Source: a virus. Taken from it: 21,802 nt of DNA. Position numbers and translations under genes: made by a program. The stretch covers positions 1 to 21,802 of the IMG/VR virus record IMGVR_UViG_3300030085_004068, one strand, 5' to 3'. Of this stretch, positions 7,247 through 21,802 are shown one piece after another. The number at the start of each line of letters is the position of its first letter. Within the stretch, counting starts at the first letter, position 1. The notes under the pieces were generated by a model. It saw only the letters and a list, made by a program, of their open reading frames with translations. It did not search any database and was not told where the DNA came from.

Positions 7247-8074
7247 TCAGATAAAGTCTTTAATAATTTGGTTGAATACTTCTGCTTTTTTTCTAATTGG
7301 ATCTTCCTTCGTTTTCCAGGAGGATTGCGTGTGCCAATTTGTTCCTGCCCTATAGTGCAAGAACTTATTTTCTAAGTGTAACTCAAAGCTAAATCCACCT
7401 TCTGGTTTTGTCCACATATCATCATTGTTTCCAAATACCAAACTAATACCATTGTATTCTTCTGGATACTCTGGACAGTCATCAGGTGTAGTGCCACCCT
7501 CATTCACATTCTTAAATTTGACATTATTCTTTAGGAACCAGTAGTAAAGATGTCCACCAATATCAGTCATGTTTCCTTCAACATTTCCATCAGAAAAATT
7601 TAAGTCAGGATCAATCTTGGTAATCTCAGACATGTTAAAGAACATGATCCCATTCCAGATATACTCAATTGGTCCTCTAACTTGGAGAGAACCAGCAATC
7701 ACTTCGTCTTTAATGTATTCCTCAATAGAAAATTCATCCAAGAGAAACATATCTGAGTCACAGAAAAGAACCATGTCTTCATCATGTTTCTCTTTGATAA
7801 TGGTATCATATGTCCACTGAATCGTCTCAGTAGCGTGTCTGGCTCCTGCAAGAGGATTATCAAACTTCTTGTTAGGATTTTGTGGTTTACGATAATATTT
7901 GATCCCGTAAATATCACAAACGCTTTTGAACTCTTCAGTGATGGATTCCTCCATGGAATCATCGACTACATTGAATTGCCAATCTTCATCTTTCAGAAAA
8001 GTTTTGAACAATCTATATTGTGTTTCAACAAAGTCAGGCCTGTTTACAACAGACGTAAAAATTTGAGTGGTCAT
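7247..8074 (-). CDS. GT-A-type glycosyltransferase
   Basis: The protein has 275 residues. An N-terminal nucleotide-binding half carries the metal/nucleotide motif DSD (D106-D108, in LFCDSDMFLLD) typical of GT-A folds. The C-terminal part is rich in Trp, Tyr and His (for example HYRAGTNWH), which is common in acceptor-binding regions. I cannot place it in a numbered family with confidence. The ATG overlaps the stop of the upstream epimerase gene as ATGA. Following an epimerase and an activated-heptose module, it may transfer the sugar those enzymes make; this is inference from gene order. Confidence 0.75.
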   Translation of the reverse strand: MTTQIFTSVVNRPDFVETQYRLFKTFLKDEDWQFNVVDDSMEESITEEFKSVCDIYGIKYYRKPQNPNKKFDNPLAGARHATETIQWTYDTIIKEKHDEDMVLFCDSDMFLLDEFSIEEYIKDEVIAGSLQVRGPIEYIWNGIMFFNMSEITKIDPDLNFSDGNVEGNMTDIGGHLYYWFLKNNVKFKNVNEGGTTPDDCPEYPEEYNGISLVFGNNDDMWTKPEGGFSFELHLENKFLHYRAGTNWHTQSSWKTKEDPIRKKAEVFNQIIKDFI

Positions 8075-8979
8075 GCATTCTCCTTCAGTTTATTCTTTAC
8101 CCATTGCTCGATTGATACAGTTGGTTCCCATCCAATAACTCTCTTTATTTTATCAATGTTTGCCAGACTTGTCTGCGCTTCACCAGGTCTTGGATCAATA
8201 TGAATCTGATTATCGGTGATTAGATTTGCAAGATCTTTTACTGAAATATTACTTCCACTACCGACGTTATATACCTCCCCGAAATGCTTTGGTTCCAATT
8301 CCTTCAAAGCAGAAAGAACATTTGCCCTTGCAACATCTTTGACGTAAATAAAATCTCTCCTCTGCTTTCCATCACCGACAATTGTCAGAGGTTCTCCTGC
8401 AGCATGTTGCCTGAAGAAAATACCTGTGACAGGAGCATATTGTCCTCTAGTAGGGGCTCCCTCACCAAAGACATTGAAATATCTAAAAACAATGGTTGGT
8501 AGATTATATAGTTCACTATACATCTTACACATTTTTTCACCAGAGATCTTAGAGACTGAATATGGATTCAGACAATCATCTGGCTGAGTCTCGATATTTG
8601 GGGAAGAATTCAGACCATATCCCGAAGAGGTCGAAGAATACATCACTCTCTTTACACCTGCCTCACGAGCACACTGTAAGACAGTGCAGGTGCCAAGAGA
8701 ATTGACTTTCACTGCATTGATCGGATTCTTGATTGCGGGACCAATGCGTGCCTCTGCAGCAGCATGAAACACATAATCAACATTCTTGTATAATTTTCTA
8801 GTCTTAGAATAGTTGAGAATACTTTCCTTATGATTCTCCACATCATCTCTCCAGACAAAGTTATCATTGTCTGAATATTCATTATCGATGACGACAACTT
8901 CATGTCCTAGTTTCAGAAGTTCCTCTACGATATGAGAACCAATAAATCCAGCACCACCAGTAACCAATGATTTAGTCAT
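8071..8979 (-). CDS. Nucleotide-sugar epimerase/dehydratase (extended SDR family)
   Basis: The 302-residue protein is an extended short-chain dehydrogenase acting on a nucleotide sugar. The NAD-binding motif TGGAGFIGSH is at residues 7-16 and the catalytic YxxxK pair is in NPYSVSKISGEK near residue 145, preceded by the serine/threonine-rich YSSTSSGYG. RYFNVFGEG and RRDFIYVKDVA are typical of the UDP-glucose/UDP-GlcNAc 4-epimerase group (GalE/WbpP-like). The exact substrate cannot be read from sequence. It starts 8 bases inside the end of the HAD-nucleotidyltransferase gene, so it may act on that gene's NDP-heptose product rather than on a UDP-hexose. Confidence 0.85.
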   Translation of the reverse strand: MTKSLVTGGAGFIGSHIVEELLKLGHEVVVIDNEYSDNDNFVWRDDVENHKESILNYSKTRKLYKNVDYVFHAAAEARIGPAIKNPINAVKVNSLGTCTVLQCAREAGVKRVMYSSTSSGYGLNSSPNIETQPDDCLNPYSVSKISGEKMCKMYSELYNLPTIVFRYFNVFGEGAPTRGQYAPVTGIFFRQHAAGEPLTIVGDGKQRRDFIYVKDVARANVLSALKELEPKHFGEVYNVGSGSNISVKDLANLITDNQIHIDPRPGEAQTSLANIDKIKRVIGWEPTVSIEQWVKNKLKENA

Positions 8980-9718
8980 AATCTTCTCTTTTGAAATTTT
9001 CGATGGATTGATAAATTTTAGTCTTTAATTTAGTCGTTGAATATCCGTGGTCTCTACTAAGCCATACTATCGGAATATGAATGTCTATGCCAGTGTATGA
9101 ACCATCAATATAATCAGATCCAAGGAACCTCATGTCATATTTTCCACTCCTCAAAAAGTCATGGAACTGATTTTCAGTATGATAATAAACAACATCGTCC
9201 ACATTTTTGAGGGATCGCAATATTTCTTCTCTTTCTTCTGCAGTATGAACTGGTGTCATCTTATGTGCTCGTTCCATAGATGGATCTACATGAAGAGCAA
9301 CAGTGAGATGATTACAACTATTTTTAGCCTCTTCAAAGAGTCTCACATATCCTGGATGGATAACATCAAATGCACCTCCAATGATACCTTTTGTCAAAGG
9401 AAGAGATGCTTTCCAATCTTCAACATTGATACCTTTGTCATCCACAAAGAGATCTGCAGTAGGTTTATGAAACATTGGTTCCAACTCATGATACATCAAT
9501 CTCCACTGCCTCAACTGCATCTTAGTGAGAACAGTATGATCTATTCCAGATCCTCTCCCTCTGGCCGTCATGATAGTAATATGATGTCCCTGCTCATAAA
9601 GACGGTTAACTTGACTAATCATAAAGGGGATGGGATATGAATTCTCATAGTCAGGTTTCCCCTTTTCATTATTTGGTGTGACACATAGAGTGCCATCAAG
9701 ATCAAAACAATATCTCAT
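8972..9718 (-). CDS. Fused HAD phosphatase and cytidylyltransferase-like nucleotidyltransferase
   Basis: Two domains are joined in 248 residues. Residues 1-105 or so form a HAD-type phosphatase: DLDGT (6-10), TARG (51-54) and DDK (93-95). From about 108 the chain is a nucleotidyltransferase of the glycerol-3-phosphate cytidylyltransferase/HldE type: GGAFDVIHPGYVRLF (114-128) and the signature YSTTKLK near the C-terminus. The usual HxGH is HPGY here. The start is the ATG at 9718, overlapping the upstream stop as ATGA; a longer frame to 9751 lies inside gmhA. Following heptose kinase and isomerase genes, it could remove the C7 phosphate of heptose 1,7-bisphosphate and then load the sugar with a nucleotide, completing NDP-heptose synthesis in one protein. 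Confidence 0.82.
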   Translation of the reverse strand: MRYCFDLDGTLCVTPNNEKGKPDYENSYPIPFMISQVNRLYEQGHHITIMTARGRGSGIDHTVLTKMQLRQWRLMYHELEPMFHKPTADLFVDDKGINVEDWKASLPLTKGIIGGAFDVIHPGYVRLFEEAKNSCNHLTVALHVDPSMERAHKMTPVHTAEEREEILRSLKNVDDVVYYHTENQFHDFLRSGKYDMRFLGSDYIDGSYTGIDIHIPIVWLSRDHGYSTTKLKTKIYQSIENFKREDYD

Positions 9719-10218
9719 ACTACTCCATGCAAGAAGATTTGATGAACACACTCAACAACACCATATGATTCACTATCAACATGATAGTTCCACAAAGCAT
9801 ACTGAGACTTTCTCCTTAGGGAATTGTGTGGGTGAAATCCTGTAAGAACTCCATATTTAATACCATACTTTTCACAATGCCTCATGCAATTAAGGATATT
9901 AATTGATTCTCCACCAGAACTCATAAGAACAACAAGAGTTCCTGGTTCTGCATGATACTCCAAAAACTTTTGATATGCATTCTCATATCCAAAGTCATTA
10001 GCTAACATTGTCAGCATTGAGGGATCAGAGAATACACACACCCTCTTCATGTGAAACTTCATGTAATCCTGAGAGATATGAGAAGCAACAGAATTGCTGC
10101 CACCATTTCCCAGGATTATAATCCGTTCATGTTCATTGAATGCTTTTTGATACTTCTCAAACTCACTTTCCATGTGAGCCTTTTCTAAAGTATCAATATA
10201 TTCTCTAAATGGATTCAC
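9715..10218 (-). CDS. gmhA: Sedoheptulose-7-phosphate isomerase (SIS domain)
   Basis: This is a SIS-domain phosphosugar isomerase of the GmhA type, which turns sedoheptulose 7-phosphate into D-glycero-D-manno-heptose 7-phosphate, the first step to nucleotide-activated heptose. The motif GNGGSNSVASHIS (37-49) and the later LMSSGGES are the two phosphosugar-binding loops. I chose the GTG at 10218 because a GGAG Shine-Dalgarno sequence lies six bases before it; an ATG at 10242 would add eight residues but has no visible ribosome site and a longer overlap with the kinase gene. At about 167 residues it is slightly shorter than E. coli GmhA (192). The heptose kinase is upstream and the HAD-nucleotidyltransferase downstream, which supports the assignment. 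Confidence 0.85.
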   Translation of the reverse strand: MNPFREYIDTLEKAHMESEFEKYQKAFNEHERIIILGNGGSNSVASHISQDYMKFHMKRVCVFSDPSMLTMLANDFGYENAYQKFLEYHAEPGTLVVLMSSGGESINILNCMRHCEKYGIKYGVLTGFHPHNSLRRKSQYALWNYHVDSESYGVVECVHQIFLHGVV

Positions 10219-11152
10219 CCGTAACTCCAGTTGAAATAACATTAATTTTAACTTTGTCGAAAGGAATTGTCAAGGAGTTCTTCTTAGAAAAAGTCAAGAA
10301 AAATCCACCGTTCCCAGCACCACAAAGTTTATGAGCAATTACATTTTGACACATTTCCAGAGTATTATCGATAAAAGAAACCCGATCATTCTCAGTAATC
10401 GAAGAACTTGTCTTCTTTTTTTGTGTCCATGCACTATTTAACTCACTTAGGAAGTCATCATAATTTGATTGATTGATGTGGTCATATGCACTATTCAAGT
10501 TATCGAGTAGTGGCTTTATCTTTTCAATATTACAACTCAACTCTTTCAGTATTTTCTTTGAGTTTCTAGTTACACCAGTGAAAACCAGGTGCATATCATA
10601 CTTCTCAAATAATTCCGTGGGAAGATATTCATACTTAATGCTACCATCTCGGAAAAATTCCATTCTCTTAAATCCACCCATACCACATCCATAAGGATCT
10701 TGATATCCACAGTAAGGATTGAACTTGAGTTCGAGTTCATATGCAAGTTTACATATTTCCGAATCAGTCATTTGCTGATCTTTAAAAATGCAGCAGGCTT
10801 TGATAAGAGAAATAATGTATGATGAGGATGAAGCAAGTCCACTTCCTTGGGAATATGCGTCACTTGTAAGTGTCACCTGAACTGGTGGCATTTCAAAGTG
10901 CTCCAGGACAACTCTCACAACCTCATTATCAATCTCCTCAACAGAAGATACCTCTTCTCTTCTTGAATAGTTGATGATATATTTGTGCTTATCTTTATTA
11001 AATCCAAACTTATCTTGACTGATGGTCACATAAGTTTTTAAGTCACAAGTAAAACTCATAACGGATCCATATCCATACTCTTTGACAAAGTATGGATTGT
11101 CAGTAGATCCACCGAACAAAGAAATCCTAAGAGGACAAGAGGCAATAATCAT
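10205..11152 (-). CDS. hddA: D-glycero-D-manno-heptose 7-phosphate kinase-like GHMP kinase
   Basis: The 315-residue protein is a GHMP-family sugar kinase. The N-terminus (SCPLRISLFGGSTDNPYF, residues 5-22) is typical of the HddA and fucokinase-like branch. The ATP-binding glycine/serine loop GSGLASSSS is at residues 103-111, and the C-terminal LCGAGNGGFFL is the third family motif. HddA phosphorylates C1 of D-glycero-D-manno-heptose 7-phosphate. The gmhA gene overlaps its end and the HAD-nucleotidyltransferase follows, so the three steps to activated heptose are consecutive. The ATG overlaps the stop of the upstream GT25-like gene as ATGA. Gene symbol by family and context. Confidence 0.85.
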   Translation of the reverse strand: MIIASCPLRISLFGGSTDNPYFVKEYGYGSVMSFTCDLKTYVTISQDKFGFNKDKHKYIINYSRREEVSSVEEIDNEVVRVVLEHFEMPPVQVTLTSDAYSQGSGLASSSSYIISLIKACCIFKDQQMTDSEICKLAYELELKFNPYCGYQDPYGCGMGGFKRMEFFRDGSIKYEYLPTELFEKYDMHLVFTGVTRNSKKILKELSCNIEKIKPLLDNLNSAYDHINQSNYDDFLSELNSAWTQKKKTSSSITENDRVSFIDNTLEMCQNVIAHKLCGAGNGGFFLTFSKKNSLTIPFDKVKINVISTGVTGESI

Positions 11153-11802
11153 AAGACAGGTTCTGGGAGGAAGAGTTGTGGAATTGGTTGAACAATTTCA
11201 ATTGATTGTTGATTAGACAACTTTTCATAGGTCACTGTTTGATTCCCATCAGAGCTTGTCTGATAGAAATATGGATCGTCAAAAGCATAAACATTATAAA
11301 ATCTCATAATTTCAGCGACCTGAACATCATAGAAACTTTGGATTTCATATCCAGCAAAACTACATGCTCTCTGTGCTGCTTTGATCCACTCATCACTGAG
11401 ATACAAGATTGCATGACCACTAAGCATGTTTCTGATTCTGACAATGTTGTTCCCAACCTTTTCATGCTGAACACAGGGACCAGAGTGACCATTCATTCTT
11501 CCCCATCCAGAGATGCCGAGATAAAAAGCATCAGCATCATCAGGAATATCGATGATAGGTTCCCAGTTCTTCAGAGCAATATCATCCTCCAAAAGAACAA
11601 AAGGCCCAGACTGCAGGGTGTCTAAAACATCCGCAACAGTCTGAGCACAACCAGCAAATCCATTCTGATGTGATTTTGCATCAATTCTATAATACTCTTC
11701 GATTTCAAGAGAGGAAAGTAACTCTTCCATCTTCTCCATTCTTTCTGGTTGCCGCTCCAGATTGATATAGTAGAAGGGGACTTTTCTAAGATCTAAGTTC
11801 AT
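11149..11802 (-). CDS. GT25-like glycosyltransferase, short form
   Basis: The protein has 217 residues. The opening YYINLERQPERMEKM (residues 11-25) and the acidic LEDD (71-74) match GT25 glycosyltransferases and the second gene of this type at 6441-7244. The usual GxxGCxxSH segment is reduced: here NGFAGCAQTVADVL (47-60), with no SH pair, and the chain is about 50 residues shorter than its relative. It may be a divergent or specialised transferase, and activity is less sure. The start at 11802 lies 17 bases inside the end of the GT6 gene. There is no frameshift visible. Confidence 0.75.
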   Translation of the reverse strand: MNLDLRKVPFYYINLERQPERMEKMEELLSSLEIEEYYRIDAKSHQNGFAGCAQTVADVLDTLQSGPFVLLEDDIALKNWEPIIDIPDDADAFYLGISGWGRMNGHSGPCVQHEKVGNNIVRIRNMLSGHAILYLSDEWIKAAQRACSFAGYEIQSFYDVQVAEIMRFYNVYAFDDPYFYQTSSDGNQTVTYEKLSNQQSIEIVQPIPQLFLPEPVL

Positions 11803-12484
11803 TATGATTCTTCTTCAGTGCAATAATTTTTGGTTCAGTGTATGGATAATTCTCAGCTCCAATAAACTCCTCAGCAAAACAATAGTTTGGATTAAGAGAT
11901 AGTGTGGGAGGATTATCAATGAAATAGCGATTCATGTGAGATTCATCATGCCAGAGTGCAACTACATCTCTTCCCAAGTCATGATTCACTCTACTTGCAA
12001 TAGTTTCAGACATCTCCATGAACTTATCAGTGCGTCCTCCATTGAACCCACCAGCATAATATGTCACTGTCTCTTGATCATACGGAACATATGCCAAAGA
12101 CTCAGGATTTCTATCGAAAGATTGATTGTGAGGTGCCATCAAAGATTGATATGGATGCATCGTTCCGACCAGATCACTAAGAATCTCATCTCCTACAGGA
12201 GCATCAATTCTCATATCTGCATCAAGATAGAAGCAATAATCATGCTCCAGGATAAAATCCTTCTCTTTGAGAAAGTAATTATATCTCTTGAGCGTTGGCA
12301 TTGGCCATGGTTCATGGTCGATGTAATGAACTCTGACATTATCAGAAGTTTCTACCTCATGATCTGTCAAAAGAAGACAGTTGATCTCATGACCATCTAA
12401 GAAATTCTTCTCAATATCGTTGTAGAGTCTCTCAACAAACTGAATATATTTGTTCGTTGCAATCGTAAGAATACAAATTTTCAT
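11786..12484 (-). CDS. GT6-family glycosyltransferase (ABO blood-group transferase type)
   Basis: The 232-residue protein carries the hallmarks of GT6, the family of mammalian ABO and alpha-1,3-galactosyltransferases: HEPWPMPTLKRYNYF (57-71), the metal motif DAD (88-90, in FYLDADMRI), YYAGGFNGGR (142-151), ALWHDESHMNRYF (176-188) and PPTLSLNPNYCF (192-203). Family members add Gal or GalNAc in alpha-1,3 linkage, in the ABO case to an alpha-1,2-fucosylated galactose. Length matches the minimal catalytic domain without a membrane stem, as in bacterial and phage members. Many bacterial GT6 enzymes have NxN in place of DxD, whereas this one keeps DxD like the animal enzymes. It follows two GT11 fucosyltransferase-like genes, the logical acceptor makers. 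Start and upstream stop overlap as ATGA. Confidence 0.87.
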   Translation of the reverse strand: MKICILTIATNKYIQFVERLYNDIEKNFLDGHEINCLLLTDHEVETSDNVRVHYIDHEPWPMPTLKRYNYFLKEKDFILEHDYCFYLDADMRIDAPVGDEILSDLVGTMHPYQSLMAPHNQSFDRNPESLAYVPYDQETVTYYAGGFNGGRTDKFMEMSETIASRVNHDLGRDVVALWHDESHMNRYFIDNPPTLSLNPNYCFAEEFIGAENYPYTEPKIIALKKNHNELRS

Positions 12485-13329
12485 TCTTCAAATAATGATA
12501 ACAGTTTTTTCACAGAAATTTTATTAGATAATTCAGAATCTACTAATTTCTTTGAGTTATATCTATCTATATTAGCACAAAACCTCTCAAAAGTATCGTC
12601 TAACTCTGAAAGTTCATAGAACTTTTCACCACAATCTTCCGACCAATATGGCACTGATGTTGCTGGGACTTTATAAGTTTCTCCCATATGATCCCACTCC
12701 TTCACATCCCAAACCAACATCGGTTTATTTACTGCCATCATTTCTTGTATAGCAATTCCTTGACTCTCTGTATTATCAACAATCAAACAGTATTTTACCT
12801 CACTCAGACACTCTCTAAAATCATTCGGATTGTAGTTTCCATATTGAAGTCCTACAAAAGAAACACCTTTCTGATTTAAAAATTGAACGATACTACTAAT
12901 ATCCTGTTCACTTCTATTTTTATAATAGACTAAACAATCATACTTGATATTATTCTCAATATCTGGTGTGTAGATTGGAGCAGGCCACACCCCTGTTCTT
13001 ACTTCTGGCCAGAATTTGTTTAATTTATTTTCTACCCAATTTGATGGGGCGATTACCTTAGTGTATTGTATTTCTTTTAAATATTCCCAGCGAGGATCCC
13101 ATGGCCATATCTGAGGTCCAATCAACACGTTGTCTTTATTCTGAAGGGAATTGTAACTTGCAAGAGTTGCATCGTCCCAACCTAAAAATATATTTCGATC
13201 GTATACTTCTTTATTATCGGAATATGGAATATCACAATCCGACAATGCTTGCAAAAGATTCTTTACTACTTTCGTTGGTCCCCTTGTATTTGCACCATAA
13301 CTAGACACATCATAAAAAACATTCAACAT
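12481..13329 (-). CDS. GT-B-type (GT4-like) glycosyltransferase
   Basis: The protein has 282 residues from the ATG at 13329, four bases after the stop of the upstream gene; a TTG at 13344 would add five residues. The N-terminus (MLNVFYDVSSYGANTRGPTK) resembles the start of GT-B enzymes, with a Gly-rich acceptor loop. The C-terminal half has a conserved E-x7-E pattern (ESQGIAIQE, after LIVDNT), characteristic of retaining transferases such as GT4. It is shorter than typical GT4 proteins (about 350-400), so part of the N-terminal domain may be reduced. Sugar and linkage unknown. Confidence 0.75.
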   Translation of the reverse strand: MLNVFYDVSSYGANTRGPTKVVKNLLQALSDCDIPYSDNKEVYDRNIFLGWDDATLASYNSLQNKDNVLIGPQIWPWDPRWEYLKEIQYTKVIAPSNWVENKLNKFWPEVRTGVWPAPIYTPDIENNIKYDCLVYYKNRSEQDISSIVQFLNQKGVSFVGLQYGNYNPNDFRECLSEVKYCLIVDNTESQGIAIQEMMAVNKPMLVWDVKEWDHMGETYKVPATSVPYWSEDCGEKFYELSELDDTFERFCANIDRYNSKKLVDSELSNKISVKKLLSLFEE

Positions 13330-13333
13330 AATA

Positions 13334-14119
13334 TCAAATAACAATCCAATCTTTCAAATATTTATCGGAAATATCAACGTTCTGTAATGGACCAAACCAA
13401 TTCTTAGGTGCGATGACCTGTTTGCTTTTTGCAAGATAGGCACCCCACCAACTAAAAGAGCTATTGGCAATGATGTGATAATTGCACTTTGTCATCAGAT
13501 ACATATCCACTCCTGGTGGATTGTTCTCAGAAATCAAAACATTATCTGATTGAAATGCTGTTTGATTTTTACACCATTCTGGATCATCCGAAAAGACGAT
13601 CATAGGAGTGTCAGGAAAATAATCAAGACCTCTTTCATAATACGACATTGATTGTAAGGGGTGGTGATCTTGAAGATTCACATAATCACCTCTTCTAATA
13701 TGAATAGAAACACACTCAGAGTCATCAATAACTCCCTCACATGATTCTACAATTTCATCAGAGAAAGTAAAATCTTTTCTAATCTCTTCCTCAATCTTTT
13801 CAAAATATTTGTGTGTCTGAAAGTATCCGAGAAAATCTACATTATCTGGACAGTTTTCAAAAAGGTTAGCATCAAAAGCATGAGTGGATTCCTGCACCAT
13901 GGAGTTTCTGCAGAACCCTTGTTTATGATCTCCGAGTTTAAAAACATCATAGATGTTTGTGTCATCAGAACGGACATTCTTATCATCTTGACCAAAGGAC
14001 TCTCTTGGAGGTATACACCAATCATGTCCATGATATGATGCAATACCTTTAATGGCAGCATATTGGAACATCTGGTTTCCGAGTCTTCCCAGATTTCCAA
14101 GTCTATTGAAAGAGATCAT
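13334..14119 (-). CDS. GT11 alpha-1,2-fucosyltransferase-like protein, copy 2 of tandem pair
   Basis: The 261-residue protein belongs to GT11. The family motifs are LGNQMFQYAA (13-22), HIRRGDYV (140-147), the FSDDPEWC segment (176-183) and ANSSFSWWGAYL (218-229). HxRRxDY binds GDP. GT11 enzymes transfer L-fucose from GDP-fucose to C2 of galactose; some relatives transfer the related sugar colitose. The neighbouring gene at 14121 is a clear paralogue of the same length, one base away. GDP-fucose synthesis genes lie 2-5 kb upstream in the same operon. The donor could be GDP-fucose or GDP-colitose. Confidence 0.9.
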   Translation of the reverse strand: MISFNRLGNLGRLGNQMFQYAAIKGIASYHGHDWCIPPRESFGQDDKNVRSDDTNIYDVFKLGDHKQGFCRNSMVQESTHAFDANLFENCPDNVDFLGYFQTHKYFEKIEEEIRKDFTFSDEIVESCEGVIDDSECVSIHIRRGDYVNLQDHHPLQSMSYYERGLDYFPDTPMIVFSDDPEWCKNQTAFQSDNVLISENNPPGVDMYLMTKCNYHIIANSSFSWWGAYLAKSKQVIAPKNWFGPLQNVDISDKYLKDWIVI

Positions 14120-14120
14120 C

Positions 14121-14903
14121 TCAAATTTTTACCCACTCTTTACAGTATACATCCCTTGTATCCTGAATGCCATCTGGCATCCATATTTTAGGAATGACTG
14201 ACAATTTACTATTTGCCAAGTATGCAGCCCACCAACTAAAAGTGCTATTAGCCATGATGTGATAATCACACAAAGTCATCAGACAAAGATCAATATATGG
14301 GTCATTAACTTCAGACACTAAAAATCTTTCGTCAGAGAAAACAGGTTGTCTCTTACACCACTCTGGTTCATCAGAAAAGATAAGAACGTTGATATTATCA
14401 GGAACAAGTTTCAGTGCTTCATCGTAATAACTCATGTCCTGAGTAACGTGATTCTTATTAGTTACATAGTCGGTTCTTCTAATGTGAATAGAAACCACTT
14501 CACTAGTAAACGAATCCTTAATACCTTTTGCAACGTCTAGAATTTCTGGTCTAAAAGTAAAATCTTCTCTAATTTCATCATCAATGTGCTTGAACCATTT
14601 GTCACTCTGAAAGAAACCCAGTAGATTTGTATCCTCCTTTGGAGGATTTTCAAAAGTTTCCCTATCAAAATGAAAATGCCTTTCCTCATGTGTAGGAAAA
14701 TTACTGATTCCCCTCTGACATTTTAAGTCAAAACAACTATCAAGATTACTTCGTAGAGTTGTATAATAATATTTTCCAAAAACTTCTTTAGGGGCAATCA
14801 TAAAGTCCCTATTATGTTTCCGTGCTAATCCTTTAGTAGCTGCATACTGAAACATCTGGTTTCCCAGATGTCCATGATTTCCGATATGATTAAATGAAAA
14901 CAT
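14121..14903 (-). CDS. GT11 alpha-1,2-fucosyltransferase-like protein, copy 1 of tandem pair
   Basis: The 260-residue protein shares the GT11 layout of its neighbour at 13334: HLGNQMFQYAATKG (12-25), HIRRTDYV (140-147), FSDEPEWC and ANSTFSWWAAYL. Here the donor motif reads RRTDY instead of RRGDY. The two copies keep motif positions almost residue for residue but differ widely between them, so the duplication is old or the copies arrived separately. Different acceptor or donor specificity is likely. Its ATG shares a base with the stop of the ColD-like gene (TGATG) and the next copy starts one base after its stop. Confidence 0.9.
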   Translation of the reverse strand: MFSFNHIGNHGHLGNQMFQYAATKGLARKHNRDFMIAPKEVFGKYYYTTLRSNLDSCFDLKCQRGISNFPTHEERHFHFDRETFENPPKEDTNLLGFFQSDKWFKHIDDEIREDFTFRPEILDVAKGIKDSFTSEVVSIHIRRTDYVTNKNHVTQDMSYYDEALKLVPDNINVLIFSDEPEWCKRQPVFSDERFLVSEVNDPYIDLCLMTLCDYHIMANSTFSWWAAYLANSKLSVIPKIWMPDGIQDTRDVYCKEWVKI

Positions 14904-16066
14904 CAGATATTCCCCAGCATTTCGTGTAAAACATTCATTTCATTATAACCGATAAAATGATTGTTGCCAATATAACAACCACGTTCATTGAGAACTTCTA
15001 CGTTAGGATTTTCTCTTTCCATTCTAAACTCTCTAAGAAAAGGTTGCTTTAATAAGTTGCCACTAACAACTGGTCTGTATTCAATCCCAACTTCTTCAAA
15101 TCCTTCTATAAGTTTATTGTGAGTCTCTTTGTTGTGAGATATAAAAGGAAACGCAAAACTACTCATATTTTCTATCCAACTGTCATCTGGCACATAAAAT
15201 TTATCCATGTAGTCCATCATGACCTCATACCACATCTGATAGTTTTCATTACGAGTATGAATCATTTCGTCCAGTCTTTTAAGTTGAGAAAGACCCAAGA
15301 CTGCACCAATATCATTGTTTCTAAAATTATATCCATCAGTCATAAACAAGAAAGATGGAATGATGTCTGGATTCTGTTTGGCATATTCTTCATACTTTGG
15401 AGACTCTCTAGCCAATCCATGACTTCTCTTCATCTTCATGATGTCGTAGAGTTCTGGATCATTTGTAGAAACCATTCCACCCTCAACAGTGGTCATATGA
15501 TGTCCAAAGTAAAAACTAAATGTACCACCAACGTTATGAGGACCACACTTTCTTCCCATTAGATCTTTACAACCATGTGACTCACATACATCCTCAAGGA
15601 GTAATGCGTCGGGGAAGATTTGTCTGATAATACACTCGTCCGAAGTATATCCAAGAAGATGTGTAATAAAAACAGCCTTGATATCCTTATGCTTTACTGC
15701 AAGTTCTTTTAGATGCTCCTCATCAAAACTAAAGTTATCAAAGTTAATATCACAAAATACTGGTTGAAGACCTAATTGAATGATGGGTGCAACATTAGTA
15801 ACCCATGTACAAGCAGGTACGATAACTTTGTCTCCTCTCTTCAGACCATACTTCTCGATAGTAGCAGCAACCAAAAGAAAATTAGCAGTGCTTCCAGAGG
15901 AAACATAGAGAGAATATTCTGATCCCAACCATTCATTCCATTGCTCTTCAAACTCTCTTACCTTAGGTCCAGCAGTGAGTTTAGAACTTGTAAGAACAAA
16001 TTTTGCAAGTTTAAGACGATCTTTCAGTGTAACAGTGTCTTTCATCAAAGGCCATAACATAGTCAT
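14903..16066 (-). CDS. colD: ColD-like PLP-dependent GDP-4-keto-6-deoxymannose 3-dehydratase
   Basis: The 387-residue protein has the DegT/DnrJ/EryC1/StrS aminotransferase fold: SSGSTANFLL (56-65), VPACTWVTN (83-91), LLEDVCESHG (156-165). At the PLP-lysine position it reads FSFYFGHHMTTVEGG (183-197), so the lysine is histidine (H189, six residues before the conserved acid of EGG). That replacement is the hallmark of ColD, which removes the C3 hydroxyl of GDP-4-keto-6-deoxymannose on the way to colitose, and of the related E1 enzyme RfbH. The C-terminal region (IEYRPVVSGNLLKQP and GCYIGNNH) also resembles ColD. Its expected substrate is the product of gmd, two genes upstream of fcl in the same operon. 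RfbH-like action on CDP-sugars is less likely since no CDP-glucose genes are seen. Confidence 0.83.
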   Translation of the reverse strand: MTMLWPLMKDTVTLKDRLKLAKFVLTSSKLTAGPKVREFEEQWNEWLGSEYSLYVSSGSTANFLLVAATIEKYGLKRGDKVIVPACTWVTNVAPIIQLGLQPVFCDINFDNFSFDEEHLKELAVKHKDIKAVFITHLLGYTSDECIIRQIFPDALLLEDVCESHGCKDLMGRKCGPHNVGGTFSFYFGHHMTTVEGGMVSTNDPELYDIMKMKRSHGLARESPKYEEYAKQNPDIIPSFLFMTDGYNFRNNDIGAVLGLSQLKRLDEMIHTRNENYQMWYEVMMDYMDKFYVPDDSWIENMSSFAFPFISHNKETHNKLIEGFEEVGIEYRPVVSGNLLKQPFLREFRMERENPNVEVLNERGCYIGNNHFIGYNEMNVLHEMLGNI

Positions 16067-16067
16067 A

Positions 16068-16997
16068 TCAGTTGTTCTCCAAATACCACTTGTAAGTTTT
16101 TTCTAATCCTTCATCTAATTCTATCATATGTTTCCAATGACATTCATTGTGAAGTCTTTCTACATCTAATAATTTTCTAGGCATTCCATTTGGTTTAGAT
16201 GTATCCCATTTAATTTCGCCATCATATCCAACAACCTTTGCCACTTTCTCTGCAAGTTGTTTAATCGTATAGTCAACCCCAGGACCAACATTGACGATAT
16301 CATCACCCTCATAAAATTTCATAAGGTGCAGACAAGCATCTGCAAGATCTTCAACATGAAGGAACTCTCGATATGGAGTGCCGTCACCCCAACATTCAAC
16401 AAAAGGATCATTGTTGATTTTTGCATTATGAAACTTATACAGCAAAGAACCAACTACATGGCTGCTAGTTTCGTTAAAAGTATCAAAGGGACCGTAGATA
16501 TTACAAGGTTGTGCAGATATAAAATTACTACCATGTTGCTGTCTGTATGACTTGCAGAGTTGTATACCTGCAATTTTAGCGACAGCATACGCTTCATTTG
16601 TTGGTTCTAGTTTACCAGTCATCAACGCATCTTCTTTGATGGGTTGCTCTGCAAGTCTGGGATAAATGCAGGAAGAACCAAGGAACAAAAGTTTCTTGAC
16701 CGCAAACTTATGAGAACAATTAATAATATTAGATTGTATCATCAAGTTATCGTAGATGAAATTTGCAGGATAAGTTTTATTATCCATGATTCCACCGACT
16801 CTTGCAGCAGCAAGAAACACATACTTAGGCCTCACTTCATTAAAAAAGTGAAGAGTATCTAATTGATTGGTAAAGTCAACTTCTTTTCTTGTTCCGAAAT
16901 GTAAGTTGTTATAACCTTTCTCTTGTAATTTTCTAACAATAGCAGATCCAACACATCCATTGGATCCTGCAATCAAAATTCTAGAATTACTCTTCAT
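16068..16997 (-). CDS. fcl: GDP-L-fucose synthase
   Basis: The 309-residue enzyme is an epimerase-reductase that converts GDP-4-keto-6-deoxymannose to GDP-L-fucose with NADPH. The chain resembles E. coli Fcl along its length: AGSNGCVGSAI (10-20), AAARVGGI (63-70), GSSCIYP (107-113, catalytic C110), YAVAKIAG (Y137, K141), SSHVVG with the catalytic His, and GTPYREFLHVEDLA. I take the ATG at 16997, which overlaps the FkbM stop as ATGA; a TTG 27 bases earlier is unlikely. Because a ColD-like gene follows directly, this enzyme might also accept the 3-deoxy intermediate, the ColC reaction, since ColC and Fcl are related. Confidence 0.92.
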   Translation of the reverse strand: MKSNSRILIAGSNGCVGSAIVRKLQEKGYNNLHFGTRKEVDFTNQLDTLHFFNEVRPKYVFLAAARVGGIMDNKTYPANFIYDNLMIQSNIINCSHKFAVKKLLFLGSSCIYPRLAEQPIKEDALMTGKLEPTNEAYAVAKIAGIQLCKSYRQQHGSNFISAQPCNIYGPFDTFNETSSHVVGSLLYKFHNAKINNDPFVECWGDGTPYREFLHVEDLADACLHLMKFYEGDDIVNVGPGVDYTIKQLAEKVAKVVGYDGEIKWDTSKPNGMPRKLLDVERLHNECHWKHMIELDEGLEKTYKWYLENN

Positions 16998-17611
16998 TTC
17001 AAACTCCAGTTTTCCCAAACCCAATCAAATTTCCAATCTAAATTATGTGTTTCTGATAATTTTTCTCGAATATCAAGTACCAATCTTTCAGAGTCATCAG
17101 TTATATCATGAAACTGTATCTGAAAGTTATTAATCTTAGAGACTAAATCATTATCAAATATGTTTTGCATAATCTCATACTCAGCACCCTCAACGTTTAT
17201 TTTCATCAAGTCAATTTTATCAACTCCCGTTTCATCATATGCATCTTTAAAAGATTTGATCTTTACCGTTTCTATATCCCTTCCATCAGCATCTTCAACA
17301 TCTCTATGAGAAATTAAATATGATGCATCTTCAGAAACTACCAAGTCCAAATCTCCAGTTTTTCCACTAACACCATAATCAAAAACTCTAACTTTATTAT
17401 TTTCCTTAAATGTTTTCTTAATTTCTTTTATAAACTTAGACAAAGGCTCAAAGATATAGATATTTGATTCATATTTGTTGTAAATTTTTTCTGCAAATGT
17501 ACCTCTACATCCACCTAAATCAAATACAATAGAATCTTCGTTTAAAGGGTAATTTAATCTAAGAGTGTTTTCGGCATTTGATTCCCACCACGCATCAATT
17601 TCCGTTTTCAT
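16994..17611 (-). CDS. FkbM-family methyltransferase
   Basis: The 205-residue protein has the SAM-binding motif [11 protein letters not shown] (28-38), the acidic residue IFEP (53-56) and the family motif [16 protein letters not shown] around residues 132-147, all typical of FkbM-type O-methyltransferases. These often methylate hydroxyl groups on sugars of LPS, capsule or natural products. The start lies 17 bases inside gmd and the stop overlaps fcl as ATGA. It is more AT-rich than gmd. In this context it probably O-methylates a deoxyhexose or heptose in the phage-directed glycan; O-methylation of sugars is a known way to vary surface recognition. Confidence 0.87.
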
Positions 17612-18602
17612 TTAAACACATGTCCTTAACTAATTGTTCAAAACTAATCTCGGGTTCCCAACCAAGTTTTTCCTTTGCTTTAGTTGCATCACCAAGTAAA
17701 GTTTCTACCTCTGCAGGTCTGAAATATTTAGGATCAACCTGAATGATTGTCTTCTTGGTCTTACGATCTACACCAATTTCATCCATTCCCTCGCCATACC
17801 ACTCAATATTGTATCCAAAGTGAGGAGCACATTTTTCAACAAACTGACGAACAGAATACTGATGTCCAGTAGCAATCACATAATCATCTGGAATATCTTG
17901 CTGAAGAATCATCCACATTCCACGGACAAAATCTTTTGCATGTCCCCAATCTCTCTTGGCATTTAGATTACCAAGTTTAAGAAGGACTTGTTTGCCCTCA
18001 GAGATAGCCTTGAGACCCCTAACAATCTTACGAGTCACAAAGGTCTCACCACGACGAGGAGATTCATGATTGAAGAGAATGCCAGAACTGCAATGCATTC
18101 CATATGACTCTCTATAGTTTTTGACAATCCAGAAACCATAGATCTTAGCCACACCGTAGGGAGAGCGTGGGTAGAACGGCGTCTTCTCTGTCTGTGGAGT
18201 CTCTTGTACAAGACCATACAGTTCACTTGTAGACGCTTGATAGATGCGTGTATGCTCTTCCAGTCCAAGAAGACGAACTGCCTCAAGGACACGAAGTGTT
18301 CCTAATCCATCAACCTGACCTGTATATTCTGGTATCTCAAAAGAAACTTTGACATGACTCTGAGCGCCCAGATTATAAATCTCCTCAGGTTTAACCTCTT
18401 GAATAATCTTCACAAGATTAGTAGAGTCAGTCAGATCTCCATAATGAAGATGAATCTTTTTAAAGATGTGGTCAATACGAGAAGTATTAATAGAGGAAGA
18501 TCTACGAATGATACCATGAACTTCATAACCTTTTTCAAGGAGAAATTCTGCTAGATAAGATCCATCCTGACCAGTGATACCAGTAATTAATGCTTTTTTC
18601 AT
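17595..18602 (-). CDS. gmd: GDP-mannose 4,6-dehydratase
   Basis: The 335-residue enzyme turns GDP-D-mannose into GDP-4-keto-6-deoxy-D-mannose, the branch-point sugar for GDP-fucose, GDP-colitose, GDP-perosamine and GDP-rhamnose. Visible features are the NADP-binding [10 protein letters not shown] (8-17), the RRSSS segment that marks the family (33-37), catalytic T125/E127 in ASTSELYG, and Y149/K153 in SPYGVAK, plus NHESPRRGE and [10 protein letters not shown]. Length is slightly below E. coli Gmd (373), as in many cyanophage copies. In this operon its product can be used by fcl and by the ColD-like gene, and possibly by the aminotransferase at 19484. Confidence 0.95.
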
Positions 18603-18618: not shown

Positions 18619-19482
18619 TCAAACTCTCTCCAATAAAATGTGTTTACCTTTTCCTTGGTATGCTAGACAATCGACTCCCTCATACAATTCAGGTTCATCT
18701 ATTTGATAATTGGTCCAATCACCCACATAAGGCCTATCAGTATCTATGATACCAGCAAGAGCATCGATTGATGCACCAACATCCAAGAATACAGCATCGG
18801 TATATTTCTTAAGACGATGTATCAATCCACTCTTAACGTGTCCTATTCCCATCAAGAATATTTTAGATGTTGATTTCTCAAGTTGTTCACCAACCATCTT
18901 CTCAGTCGCATCGATATCATCACATGCGAAAAGTTGTGGTATAGAAATATAATCCTCAAACTTTTCAAGTCCAAGATACTCTTGATATTGAGGTGCTTCA
19001 ATAATATTCTGAATGATATTCATTTTTGTATTAGCACCAATCAATCCAATCTTACCAGAAAATTCCTGAAGAATCCATCTATTAGCGACTAACCCATACC
19101 CATACTCTGCAGGATAATCAATTTCAATATCAGGAATAACTTCCTTGAACCTTGAAATATTTTCAGGATAGATTTCACATGTGTAGTAATCACACTTCTT
19201 AGAACCCTCTACAAATGCATCATGATCGATCAGTTCATAACTCTTACTCAATGCCCTACGGCCGGGGGCAGCACTACCAACTCCCTCCTTTTTAAGAAAA
19301 TAGTAATCACCATCACCAAACTTATAGAAAGTTTTAGATTCATTATTATCTACAAGATTAACAAGAAGATCTTTAAATTCTTCTAGTTTCTCTTGAAAGT
19401 TTGGATAACTGTTTGGATCCCCAAAACATGGATTAGGATCAAGGTTTACAGTTCCTTCAATTTTATATTTGTCCAAATACAT
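18619..19482 (-). CDS. GT-D-like (DUF1792-like) putative glycosyltransferase
   Basis: The protein has 287 residues. [12 protein letters not shown] (52-63) resembles the RFGDGE motif of the DUF1792 domain, which has the GT-D glycosyltransferase fold, and [16 protein letters not shown] followed by FLDVGASID resembles that domain's C-terminal nucleotide-binding part (G-x-x-...-LDVG). It has no signal or membrane segment. The similarity is by eye and modest. The stop is 16 bases before gmd, and its ATG lies one base after the stop of the aminotransferase gene. If correct, it would transfer a hexose in the cytoplasm; acceptor unknown. Confidence 0.55.
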
Positions 19483-19483
19483 A

Positions 19484-20656
19484 TCAATCCTCAGTTACAA
19501 TAGTTCCGTGATAAATTGCCGTCTTTCCATCATATGATGTAATACTTCTTTCCTTATAATATTCTTTAACCCAATAAATCACATAATCAATGTCTTCTTG
19601 AGTCATTCCAGGATGACAAGGAAGACTGAGCAGTTTACGCCACTCACGATCAGCAACAGGGTATTCACGATTCTGTTGCACGATATCATACTTGTGAAGA
19701 GGTTTAAAGTGAACACTAGTATGAATCTTTTTATCTGCAAGATAATCAATCATATCATCGCGTTCAGCAGCAGGAACACGAGCACAATAATACTGAACCG
19801 TTTCAGACCACACAGGTGGACGAATCAGACCTGCAAGGCCCTCATTATATGATTTTTGAATATGTCTACGCCATTCAAGATGCTTAGATAGTTTTTTCAT
19901 TTGCTCTAGACAAATCGCTGCCTGAAGGTCAATCATGTAGCACTTATATCCAAGAACATCAACCTCATAATCCCATGAATATCCAGGTCTACCAGTCAGA
20001 CCATCGTCTTTCTTGACACGAGAATAAGTGCTGGTGATTCCTAACCATGTCATGGGGACCAACTTTTCATACAGATCCTTATCATTAGTAGTAATCATTC
20101 CACCATCACCACATGGCATTGTCTTCACTGCTTGGAATGACCACACAGCAACATCACCTTGAGTTCCAGCACCAGGCGTATAACAACTATGAGCACAGTC
20201 CTCAATAATCAAACCATCATAAAACTTACGGATTTCATCAATGGGAGCCTGAACTCCTGCTTGATTAACTGCAATGATTGCCTTTGTATTTGGTTTGAGG
20301 TTCTTACGAACATCTTCAGGATCAAGACACATAGTGTCTTCCAAAACATCAACGATATTAGAGGTGCAATTATTCCAAAGAGGAACAACGGCAGTGGTCA
20401 TGAAAGAAATTGTAGGATTGATAATATCACAATCTTTGATCCCTAAAGCCTTAAGAACAAGATCTTGTCCACTGGTTGCACTATTTACTGCTACGGCATA
20501 CTTAGCACCGACCATCTCAGCAAACTTCTTTTCAAACTCAGCGACTTTAGGTCCTTTACCCCACCAACCGCTTTCGATTGATTCTTTGATAGCATTAACT
20601 TCCTCTTCTCCACCAACGGGACGAAGAACTGGCAATACAGTATCACGAATTTTCAT
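19484..20656 (-). CDS. DegT/DnrJ/EryC1/StrS sugar aminotransferase
   Basis: The 390-residue protein is a PLP-dependent nucleotide-sugar aminotransferase. The lysine that binds PLP is present: K178 in SFQAVKTMPCGDGG. Other family marks are NSATSGQDL (58-66), IEDCAHSCYT (151-160) and the C-terminal HFKPLHKY. It probably puts an amino group on a keto-sugar such as a 4-keto-6-deoxyhexose; with gmd in the operon, a GDP-perosamine-like route is possible, and with the RmlC-type gene upstream a dTDP-amino sugar is possible. The substrate cannot be decided from sequence. A good Shine-Dalgarno sequence (AGGAGA) lies seven bases before the ATG, the strongest ribosome site in the island. Confidence 0.88.
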   Translation of the reverse strand: MKIRDTVLPVLRPVGGEEEVNAIKESIESGWWGKGPKVAEFEKKFAEMVGAKYAVAVNSATSGQDLVLKALGIKDCDIINPTISFMTTAVVPLWNNCTSNIVDVLEDTMCLDPEDVRKNLKPNTKAIIAVNQAGVQAPIDEIRKFYDGLIIEDCAHSCYTPGAGTQGDVAVWSFQAVKTMPCGDGGMITTNDKDLYEKLVPMTWLGITSTYSRVKKDDGLTGRPGYSWDYEVDVLGYKCYMIDLQAAICLEQMKKLSKHLEWRRHIQKSYNEGLAGLIRPPVWSETVQYYCARVPAAERDDMIDYLADKKIHTSVHFKPLHKYDIVQQNREYPVADREWRKLLSLPCHPGMTQEDIDYVIYWVKEYYKERSITSYDGKTAIYHGTIVTED

Positions 20657-20668
20657 TAGTTTCTCCTA

Positions 20669-21370
20669 TTAGCAAATGTGAAAATTATTAATGTCAAGGA
20701 CTTCACCATTCCTTGCCCAATCGTTTCTAATCATACCCAACCAATCCAACCACTCAAAATCATGATCATTTTCAGTAATAAAATTATAAAGAAGTTGCTC
20801 TGATCCAAGAGCTAATGTAGTGTTCTCCTCAATGTATTTCATAGCATAATTAGCATAATCATTCATGACAGAAGTTTTCATGGAGAAAAACATATCATTG
20901 TATAATCCATCCTTGGGATTTTCCAAATAACTTCCATTCAAAAAAGAAAAGTCTGGATTAGACAGTAGTGCTTGTTTTTTTAAATTTTCTGTTCTTTCAA
21001 AGACATATGGGCAAGTAAACATTCTCCTTGCCGTAATGTAAGAAATATTCTCATAGTTATCTAGGTCAGTTTCATCAAGGGCAGTTTTGAGCATGAGAAG
21101 CTCTCCCATTCCTTTATTAGTTGTCCCAATATTACCACCACTTCCAGTAGTACACATCTCAGTCTCAGAGAGTAACTCCCGCAATTCTTCACTCTTTATT
21201 TGATCTGGATCATCAATTGTATTTTCACAGACCAAAAGATCGAAAGATTCTGGCAAAATTCTAATAAGTTGCTTCAAACAAATTAGATATTCATTCTCCC
21301 GAACGTCACAAACTTGTTCGCTAAGTTGAACTGGTCGCAATGAACAGAATGCCAATGCTAAATTTTTCAT
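20669..21370 (-). CDS. Unknown protein (233 aa), first gene after the glycan-island promoter
   Basis: I do not recognise a family. The chain is cytoplasmic in character: a beta-strand-like start (MKNLALAFCSLRPV), a Gly/Asn loop (GSGGNIGTTNKGMGELLMLK, about residues 76-95), and several aromatic clusters towards the C-terminus. Such a layout is compatible with a nucleotide-sugar-dependent enzyme, and the gene leads a glycan operon, but no catalytic motif is clear. I chose the ATG at 21370; a GTG at 21382 lies only about 5 bases from the predicted transcript start, so is less likely. The next gene starts 12 bases after the stop. Confidence 0.7.
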   Translation of the reverse strand: MKNLALAFCSLRPVQLSEQVCDVRENEYLICLKQLIRILPESFDLLVCENTIDDPDQIKSEELRELLSETEMCTTGSGGNIGTTNKGMGELLMLKTALDETDLDNYENISYITARRMFTCPYVFERTENLKKQALLSNPDFSFLNGSYLENPKDGLYNDMFFSMKTSVMNDYANYAMKYIEENTTLALGSEQLLYNFITENDHDFEWLDWLGMIRNDWARNGEVLDINNFHIC

Positions 21371-21393
21371 ATGAGACTTCACATTTATCCAGC

Positions 21394-21422: not shown

Positions 21423-21802
21423 GTGTGCATTCCTTTAATACTTTACCTTCATCATCTTTTTTAGATAGAATTGGGTTACTAATCTGCCAATCAATATTCA
21501 ATTCAGGATCATTCCAGAGTAGAGTTCTTTCATTCTCTGGGCTATAATCATTAGTTACCTTATAAAAAAATTGTGTCCCCTCACTTAAAGATAAGAATCC
21601 ATGGGCAAAACCTGGGGGAACCCATAAAGAAAGATTATTTTTACTCGATAGAATGATAGAAAAAGATTTACCAAAAGTGGGAGACTTCTGTCGTATATCA
21701 ACAATAACATCCTGCACGGATCCTTTGATCACTCTAACAAGTTTGCCTTGAGGTTTTTTAAGTTGATAGTGAAGACCTCTCAGCACACCCTTCTTTGATG
21801 TG
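21415..21802 (-). CDS. rfbC: RmlC/RfbC-type dTDP-4-dehydrorhamnose 3,5-epimerase, C-terminal part
   Basis: This is a cupin-fold sugar epimerase of the RmlC type, cut by the window edge at its N-terminus. The frame is open to base 21802 and reads TSKKGVLRGLHYQ at the edge; an internal GTG at 21786 is a valine codon, not the start. Family marks are GLHYQ with the catalytic His, GKLVRVIKGSVQDVIVDIR, and WVPPGFAHGFLSL. RmlC epimerises C3 and C5 of dTDP-4-keto-6-deoxyglucose on the way to dTDP-rhamnose; relatives act at C3 only. The roughly 45-55 missing residues lie beyond the window. It may supply the same keto-sugar pool used by the aminotransferase two genes downstream. Confidence 0.9.
   Translation of the reverse strand, partial: TSKKGVLRGLHYQLKKPQGKLVRVIKGSVQDVIVDIRQKSPTFGKSFSIILSSKNNLSLWVPPGFAHGFLSLSEGTQFFYKVTNDYSPENERTLLWNDPELNIDWQISNPILSKKDDEGKVLKECTLA

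Follow-up and report, generated by a model that had tools for sequence, protein, structure and literature searches.

A predicted ColD-type sugar 3-dehydratase and a predicted route to colitose in a cyanophage operon

A viral DegT-family protein that carries histidine in place of the PLP-binding lysine raises the question of whether a phage encodes a sugar 3-dehydratase, and of which sugar such an enzyme would help to make. We addressed this question in the window, by which we mean the whole stretch of 21,802 nucleotides analysed here, which spans bases 1-21802 of a virus record 31.2 kb in length. The record carries plastocyanin, PTOX, hli, ferredoxin and gnd genes, like Synechococcus phages, and these photosynthesis genes together with the nearest phages identify it as a cyanophage, infecting marine cyanobacteria, bearing out the phage origin assumed in the preliminary description. 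Starting from an rmlC-like ORF at 21801 and reaching down to 6441, the genes share one orientation, overlap in many places and are never more than 32 bases apart. The tight gene order gmd-fkbM-fcl-colD-GT11-GT11 within this operon corresponds to the enzymes with which E. coli O55 makes colitose, and the three that the pathway calls for (Gmd, ColD and an epimerase-reductase of the Fcl/ColC kind) occur together. Colitose is a rare bacterial sugar that is immunodominant in enterobacterial O-antigen.

The gene at 14903..16066 (minus strand) is a single open frame of 387 aa whose product has the DegT fold (Pfam PF01041). Residues 188-197 form the active-site motif GHHMTTVEGG (15476..15505, minus strand; coordinates from residue numbers), and alignment placed H189, the first histidine of this motif, in the same column as H188 of ColD, H220 of E1/RfbH and the lysine of K-type DegT proteins. 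Because the alignment through the motif was ungapped, no alternative lysine could fill the PLP position. Both the motif and the numbering given previously were correct. A second DegT protein of the same operon, predicted from Pfam and alignment to be an ordinary lysine-bearing sugar aminotransferase (19484..20656, minus strand), carries WSFQAVKTMPCGDGG with K in the H189 column, confirming the contrast that had been drawn between the two family members. The PLP column holds His in 80 of 80 deduplicated close viral relatives of the window ColD. Conservation within the first set of relatives alone is partly circular, because one search pattern used to collect it included the motif; His was also kept in relatives found by scans seeded with the neighbouring Fcl, not ColD. 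An independent contig (L003) encodes a 97% identical protein, indicating that H189 is no sequencing oddity.

To place the protein among known enzymes, we examined its sequence, tree position and predicted fold. When 50 DegT proteins were placed in a tree, one branch (SH-aLRT 100) parted all His-site from K-site proteins, and the His side divided into an E1-type clade (97) and a ColD-type clade (98), with the window protein and O55 ColD both in the latter. A PDB sequence search returned ColD as the best match (2gms, E 1.6e-61), followed by E1 (9e-37) and aminotransferases (1e-26), and the AlphaFold model (mean pLDDT 90.4) matched ColD with Z 46.8 and an rmsd of 2.4 over 376 residues, E1 with Z 43.9 and aminotransferases with Z 41.7 and below. 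W88, H215, R219, R250 and N371 (ColD numbering) are common to ColD and all 80 phage relatives, whereas E1-type enzymes differ at these positions; the comparison took in columns where O55 ColD agrees with 95% or more of the 80 relatives. On family, active-site residues, tree and fold, the product of 14903-16066 belongs to the ColD branch and is a predicted PLP/PMP-dependent sugar 3-dehydratase with H189 as its catalytic residue.

Two other enzyme classes were weighed against this assignment. Databases name the protein otherwise, since PHROG 3139 ("aminotransferase") mixes His-type 3-dehydratases (14903-16066) with lysine-type aminotransferases (19484-20656) and phage records use the same name, but an aminotransferase with an unusual active site is very improbable for a protein that has lost the PLP lysine, groups with ColD and E1 in the His clade and bears the ColD-specific residues. 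The Lys-to-His change is what separates 3-dehydratases from aminotransferases (review, PMC8987622), and since the window protein and its 80 close relatives all carry His at this position, membership of the DegT sugar aminotransferases was rejected. An E1/RfbH-type enzyme acting on CDP sugars with an Fe-S cluster is extremely improbable: although the RfbH model is the best NCBIfam match, its score of 190 bits lies far below the cut-off of 423, three of the four E1 Fe-S cysteines are absent (R, S and a gap instead), and no CDP-glucose dehydratase was recognised in the examined part of the virus record. E1 and SpnQ have the Fe-S cluster and ColD is without it (PMC8987622), and the cysteine set ruled out E1/RfbH membership. 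The earlier assignment to a class covering both ColD and RfbH therefore stands for the Lys-to-His change and the ColD-type 3-deoxygenation class, whereas RfbH/E1 is a relative of the wrong type. E1/RfbH-type 3-dehydratases with Fe-S cysteines do occur in other viral contigs (L014:15041, L035:12209, L077:3, L078:6270 and L199:6021), some of which carry a ColD-type gene too.

The predicted maker of the ColD substrate, the GDP-mannose 4,6-dehydratase Gmd, is encoded at 17595..18602 (minus strand) and scored 552 bits against TIGR01472 (cut-off 415), with 64% identity to E. coli Gmd. Between gmd and fcl lies a small methyltransferase-like gene (16994..17611, minus strand), a putative fkbM named by eye, which is found in relatives both with and without ColD. 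Downstream in the same operon, a glycosyltransferase of the GT6 (ABO blood-group A/B) family (11786..12484, minus strand; Pfam PF03414) follows the GT11 pair, and the succession of GT11 and GT6 recurs in many viral loci. Elsewhere in the operon, GmhA-like, HddA-like and HldE-C-like genes (8972-11152) suggest an NDP-heptose route. Four operon genes (18619-19482, 20669-21382, 12481-13344 and 7247-8074) had no Pfam match, and the first three of these had no PHROGs match either; the gene at 18619 is 70-74% conserved across related cassettes. Upstream in the record are rmlA-, rmlB- and rmlC-like genes (L083:2016-4729), among which no rmlD was recognised; the same region encodes a mannose-6-phosphate isomerase domain that stands alone.

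We next asked how regularly ColD accompanies these partners in other viruses. The gmd-fcl-colD order was found in ColD-seeded loci, in the cultured phage S-CAM7 and in the ACG-2014f group, and fcl was joined directly to colD, usually at a distance of no more than 10 bases, in 92 distinct junctions from viral contigs and S-CAM7. Scans seeded with Fcl, which make no selection for ColD, gave a mixed picture: most loci found with the window Fcl were without ColD, many of them gmd-fcl-GT11-GT6, while a ColD-type gene was present in the locus for at least 68 of the 78 Fcls nearest to that of contig L042. No ColD turned up when 39 ColD-less records were searched over their whole length, the same search having found it in 9 of 18 others; as the records are incomplete, such absence is not proof. 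On a tree of 161 proteins from the Fcl-seeded scans, from which undecidable truncated contigs were left out, ColD presence required 16 changes compared with 52 under shuffled labels, a result that reflects clustering and not rate because the shuffles ignore relatedness. One clade of this tree has ColD in 58 of 61 members and another in 12 of 72. ColD presence thus follows the phylogeny of the neighbouring Fcl and, as described below, of one GT11 type. Two contigs (L206:4941 and L207:4941) have, in the slot of ColD, a lysine-type DegT gene whose product adjoins the His clade in the DegT tree; the fcl immediately before it encodes a protein of the ColD-bearing clade.

The Fcl-like partner itself (16068..17024, minus strand; homology starts near residue 10, and the true start may be internal) is predicted from profile, identity and tree to be a GDP-4-keto-6-deoxyhexose epimerase/reductase and is a candidate GDP-colitose and/or GDP-fucose synthase. 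Its score of 442 bits falls short of the GDP-fucose synthase cut-off (500); identity is 52% with E. coli Fcl and 39% with O55 ColC. Catalytic residues do not discriminate ColC from Fcl, C109, Y136, K140 and H179 being identical in both, and changes at S108, W202 and K283 seen in ColD-linked Fcls were dropped as a colitose signature, since both the window Fcl and O55 ColC keep the fucose-type residues. In the tree, the window Fcl grouped on a long branch with seven ColD-bearing rows at a support of 91, below the starred level, and this placement among ColD-bearing phages is suggestive only. The near twin contig L003 has ColD, gmd, GT6 and heptose-like genes 97-99% identical to those of the window, while its Fcl is only 51% identical and falls in the ColD-bearing clade; at L003:6299-7998, fcl and the preceding gene are swapped for the 51% identical version and an unrelated gene. 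ColD has therefore been retained with either Fcl, as would fit if both Fcls serve colitose synthesis or if one of them has recently changed its product. Fcl is the least certain step of the proposed route, and we regard it as a candidate GDP-colitose synthase.

Both ORFs that follow colD match GT11 (PF01531), and they differ in type, as seen in the GT11 tree and in GT11-seeded scans. GT11a (14121..14903, minus strand) fell in a 17-row clade (98) in which every row comes from a ColD locus, and among the 20 loci nearest to it (at least 48% identity) ColD is present in the locus for 14 and elsewhere in the record for some others. The apparently ColD-less relatives of GT11a are partly explained by short flanks, as a whole-record search located ColD elsewhere in 9 of 18 records; three relatives (L364, L366 and L369) showed no ColD in their partial records. 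GT11b (13334..14119, minus strand) fell in a clade (95) in which most GT11s immediately follow fcl in loci that lack ColD, and ColD was present in 6, absent in 44 and undecided in 14 of its 64 nearest loci (at least 50% identity). Since b-type GT11s also accompany ColD in two contigs (L004 and L005), GT11 type is no proof of donor. Colitosyltransferase activity has been characterised for a GT11 enzyme, WbgN of E. coli O55, which can use GDP-fucose as well (PMC11987014, PMC12723683). The suggestion that the pair may be colitosyltransferases is kept for GT11a, a candidate colitosyltransferase of the ColD-linked type, and not for GT11b, which groups with ColD-less fucose-type cassettes and is a candidate fucosyltransferase. 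Given this resemblance, the phage may use both colitose and fucose, through GT11a and GT11b, respectively.

From these genes we infer the substrate and product of the cassette, the donor choice of its GT11s and its biological role, taking the ColD mechanism as reviewed (PMC8987622). Gmd would supply GDP-4-keto-6-deoxymannose, whose C4 ketone would form a Schiff base with the PMP of ColD; H189 would then abstract a proton from the cofactor and the C3 hydroxyl would depart, after which hydrolysis would release GDP-4-keto-3,6-dideoxymannose and glutamate would regenerate PMP. The Fcl-like enzyme would carry out C5 epimerisation and C4 reduction to GDP-L-colitose (3-deoxy-L-fucose), and GT11a would move colitose onto a surface glycan. 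Because GT11b is of the fucosyl type and Fcl is not clearly specialised, a parallel branch may lead from the same Gmd-derived intermediate to GDP-fucose and GT11b. We consider it probable that the window protein acts as a ColD-type 3-dehydratase in this route from Gmd through ColD and Fcl to GDP-colitose and GT11a. The route to colitose proposed in the preliminary description accordingly remains the likeliest outcome, on the O55-like gene set and the fcl-colD linkage, with the qualification that only GT11a is of the ColD-linked type. Whether the sugar would sit on host LPS or capsule or on the virion, and whether it would serve to block other phages, alter grazing or decorate tails, we can only suggest.

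Other fates of the 3-dehydratase chemistry were weighed against colitose. ColD homologues also act on GDP-heptoses (PMC10440746), and the same chemistry on GDP-heptose would yield a 3,6-dideoxyheptose like that of Campylobacter jejuni HS:5/HS:11. The heptose-like genes of the operon would suit such a pathway, and since O55 ColD shares 62-67% identity with the heptose C3-dehydratases of C. jejuni (PMC10440746), homology is unable to separate the substrates. We nevertheless hold a heptose product to be quite unlikely, because heptose genes are missing from most ColD-bearing viral cassettes, the nucleotidyltransferase is HldE/CTP-transferase-like and not of the HddC guanylyltransferase kind, Gmd strongly matches GDP-mannose dehydratase, and the donors of characterised GT11 enzymes are GDP-fucose-like. 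It is likewise unlikely that Fcl yields GDP-fucose only while the ColD product is used elsewhere, for example by the DegT protein at 19484 to form GDP-3-deoxyperosamine. The closeness of the window Fcl to the fucose type, a perosamine synthase structure with bound GDP-3-deoxyperosamine (3dr7, from its title) and the K-type DegT after fcl in L206/L207 speak for this fate, but the window K-type DegT matches ArnB better (166 bits) than perosamine synthase (105 bits) and is missing from most ColD cassettes, and ColD is joined directly to fcl in the 92 distinct junctions counted above.

Extending the colitose route to cyanophages more generally, we tentatively propose a swappable module, in which placing ColD after fcl and before GT11 would convert a cassette for fucose into one for colitose, with matching Fcl and GT11 types, and in which the window phage makes both sugars, placed by its two GT11s and followed by GT6; this would be the first viral 3,6-dideoxyhexose route, though we judge this fuller picture somewhat less likely to be right than wrong. 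LPS-type and fucose genes are known from cyanophages (PMC9602691), and a viral colitose route was not found in the literature searched, which covered few subscription papers. A colitose-type module that is optionally inserted into fucose cassettes and linked to a GT11 type appears to be unreported in that literature. Surface-glycan genes of phages usually carry mere "aminotransferase" or "epimerase" labels; here a product can be named and could be tested in the cultured phage S-CAM7. Natural pairs with and without ColD offer a ready comparison of what a phage gains from changing one hydroxyl of a surface sugar.

Fucose-type cassettes of cyanophages such as S-SCSM1 and P-SSM2 share gmd and fcl, often with GT11 and GT6, but no ColD was found in them, unlike the window. 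The proteins of S-CAM7 and ACG-2014f are 58-60% identical to the window ColD, with the same motif and the same gmd-fcl-colD-GT11 order; they differ in having a single a-type GT11 beside colD and an Fcl of the ColD-only clade, and their genes are annotated as "aminotransferase" or "putative CDP-4-keto-6-deoxy-D-glucose-3-dehydrase", the S-CAM7 gene already bearing the CDP-sugar-type name. E1/RfbH, the CDP-4-keto-6-deoxyglucose 3-dehydratase, shares the His clade and the first half-reaction but requires [2Fe-2S], a reductase and a CDP substrate, and the C. jejuni HS:5 GDP-heptose C3-dehydratase has ColD-type chemistry on a heptose. The closest characterised enzyme is ColD (WbdK) of E. coli O55, a GDP-4-keto-6-deoxy-D-mannose 3-dehydratase that has its fold, the Lys-to-His replacement and W88, H215, R219 and R250 in common with the window protein, likewise lacks the Fe-S cysteine set and is encoded adjacent to ColC in a colitose cluster that, like that of the window, includes gmd, an Fcl/ColC-like gene and GT11. 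The window protein is viral, is 36% identical to O55 ColD, has Gly (G188, invariant among the phage relatives) for S187 and is paired with an Fcl closer to Fcl than to ColC; it is a new viral branch of this known family.
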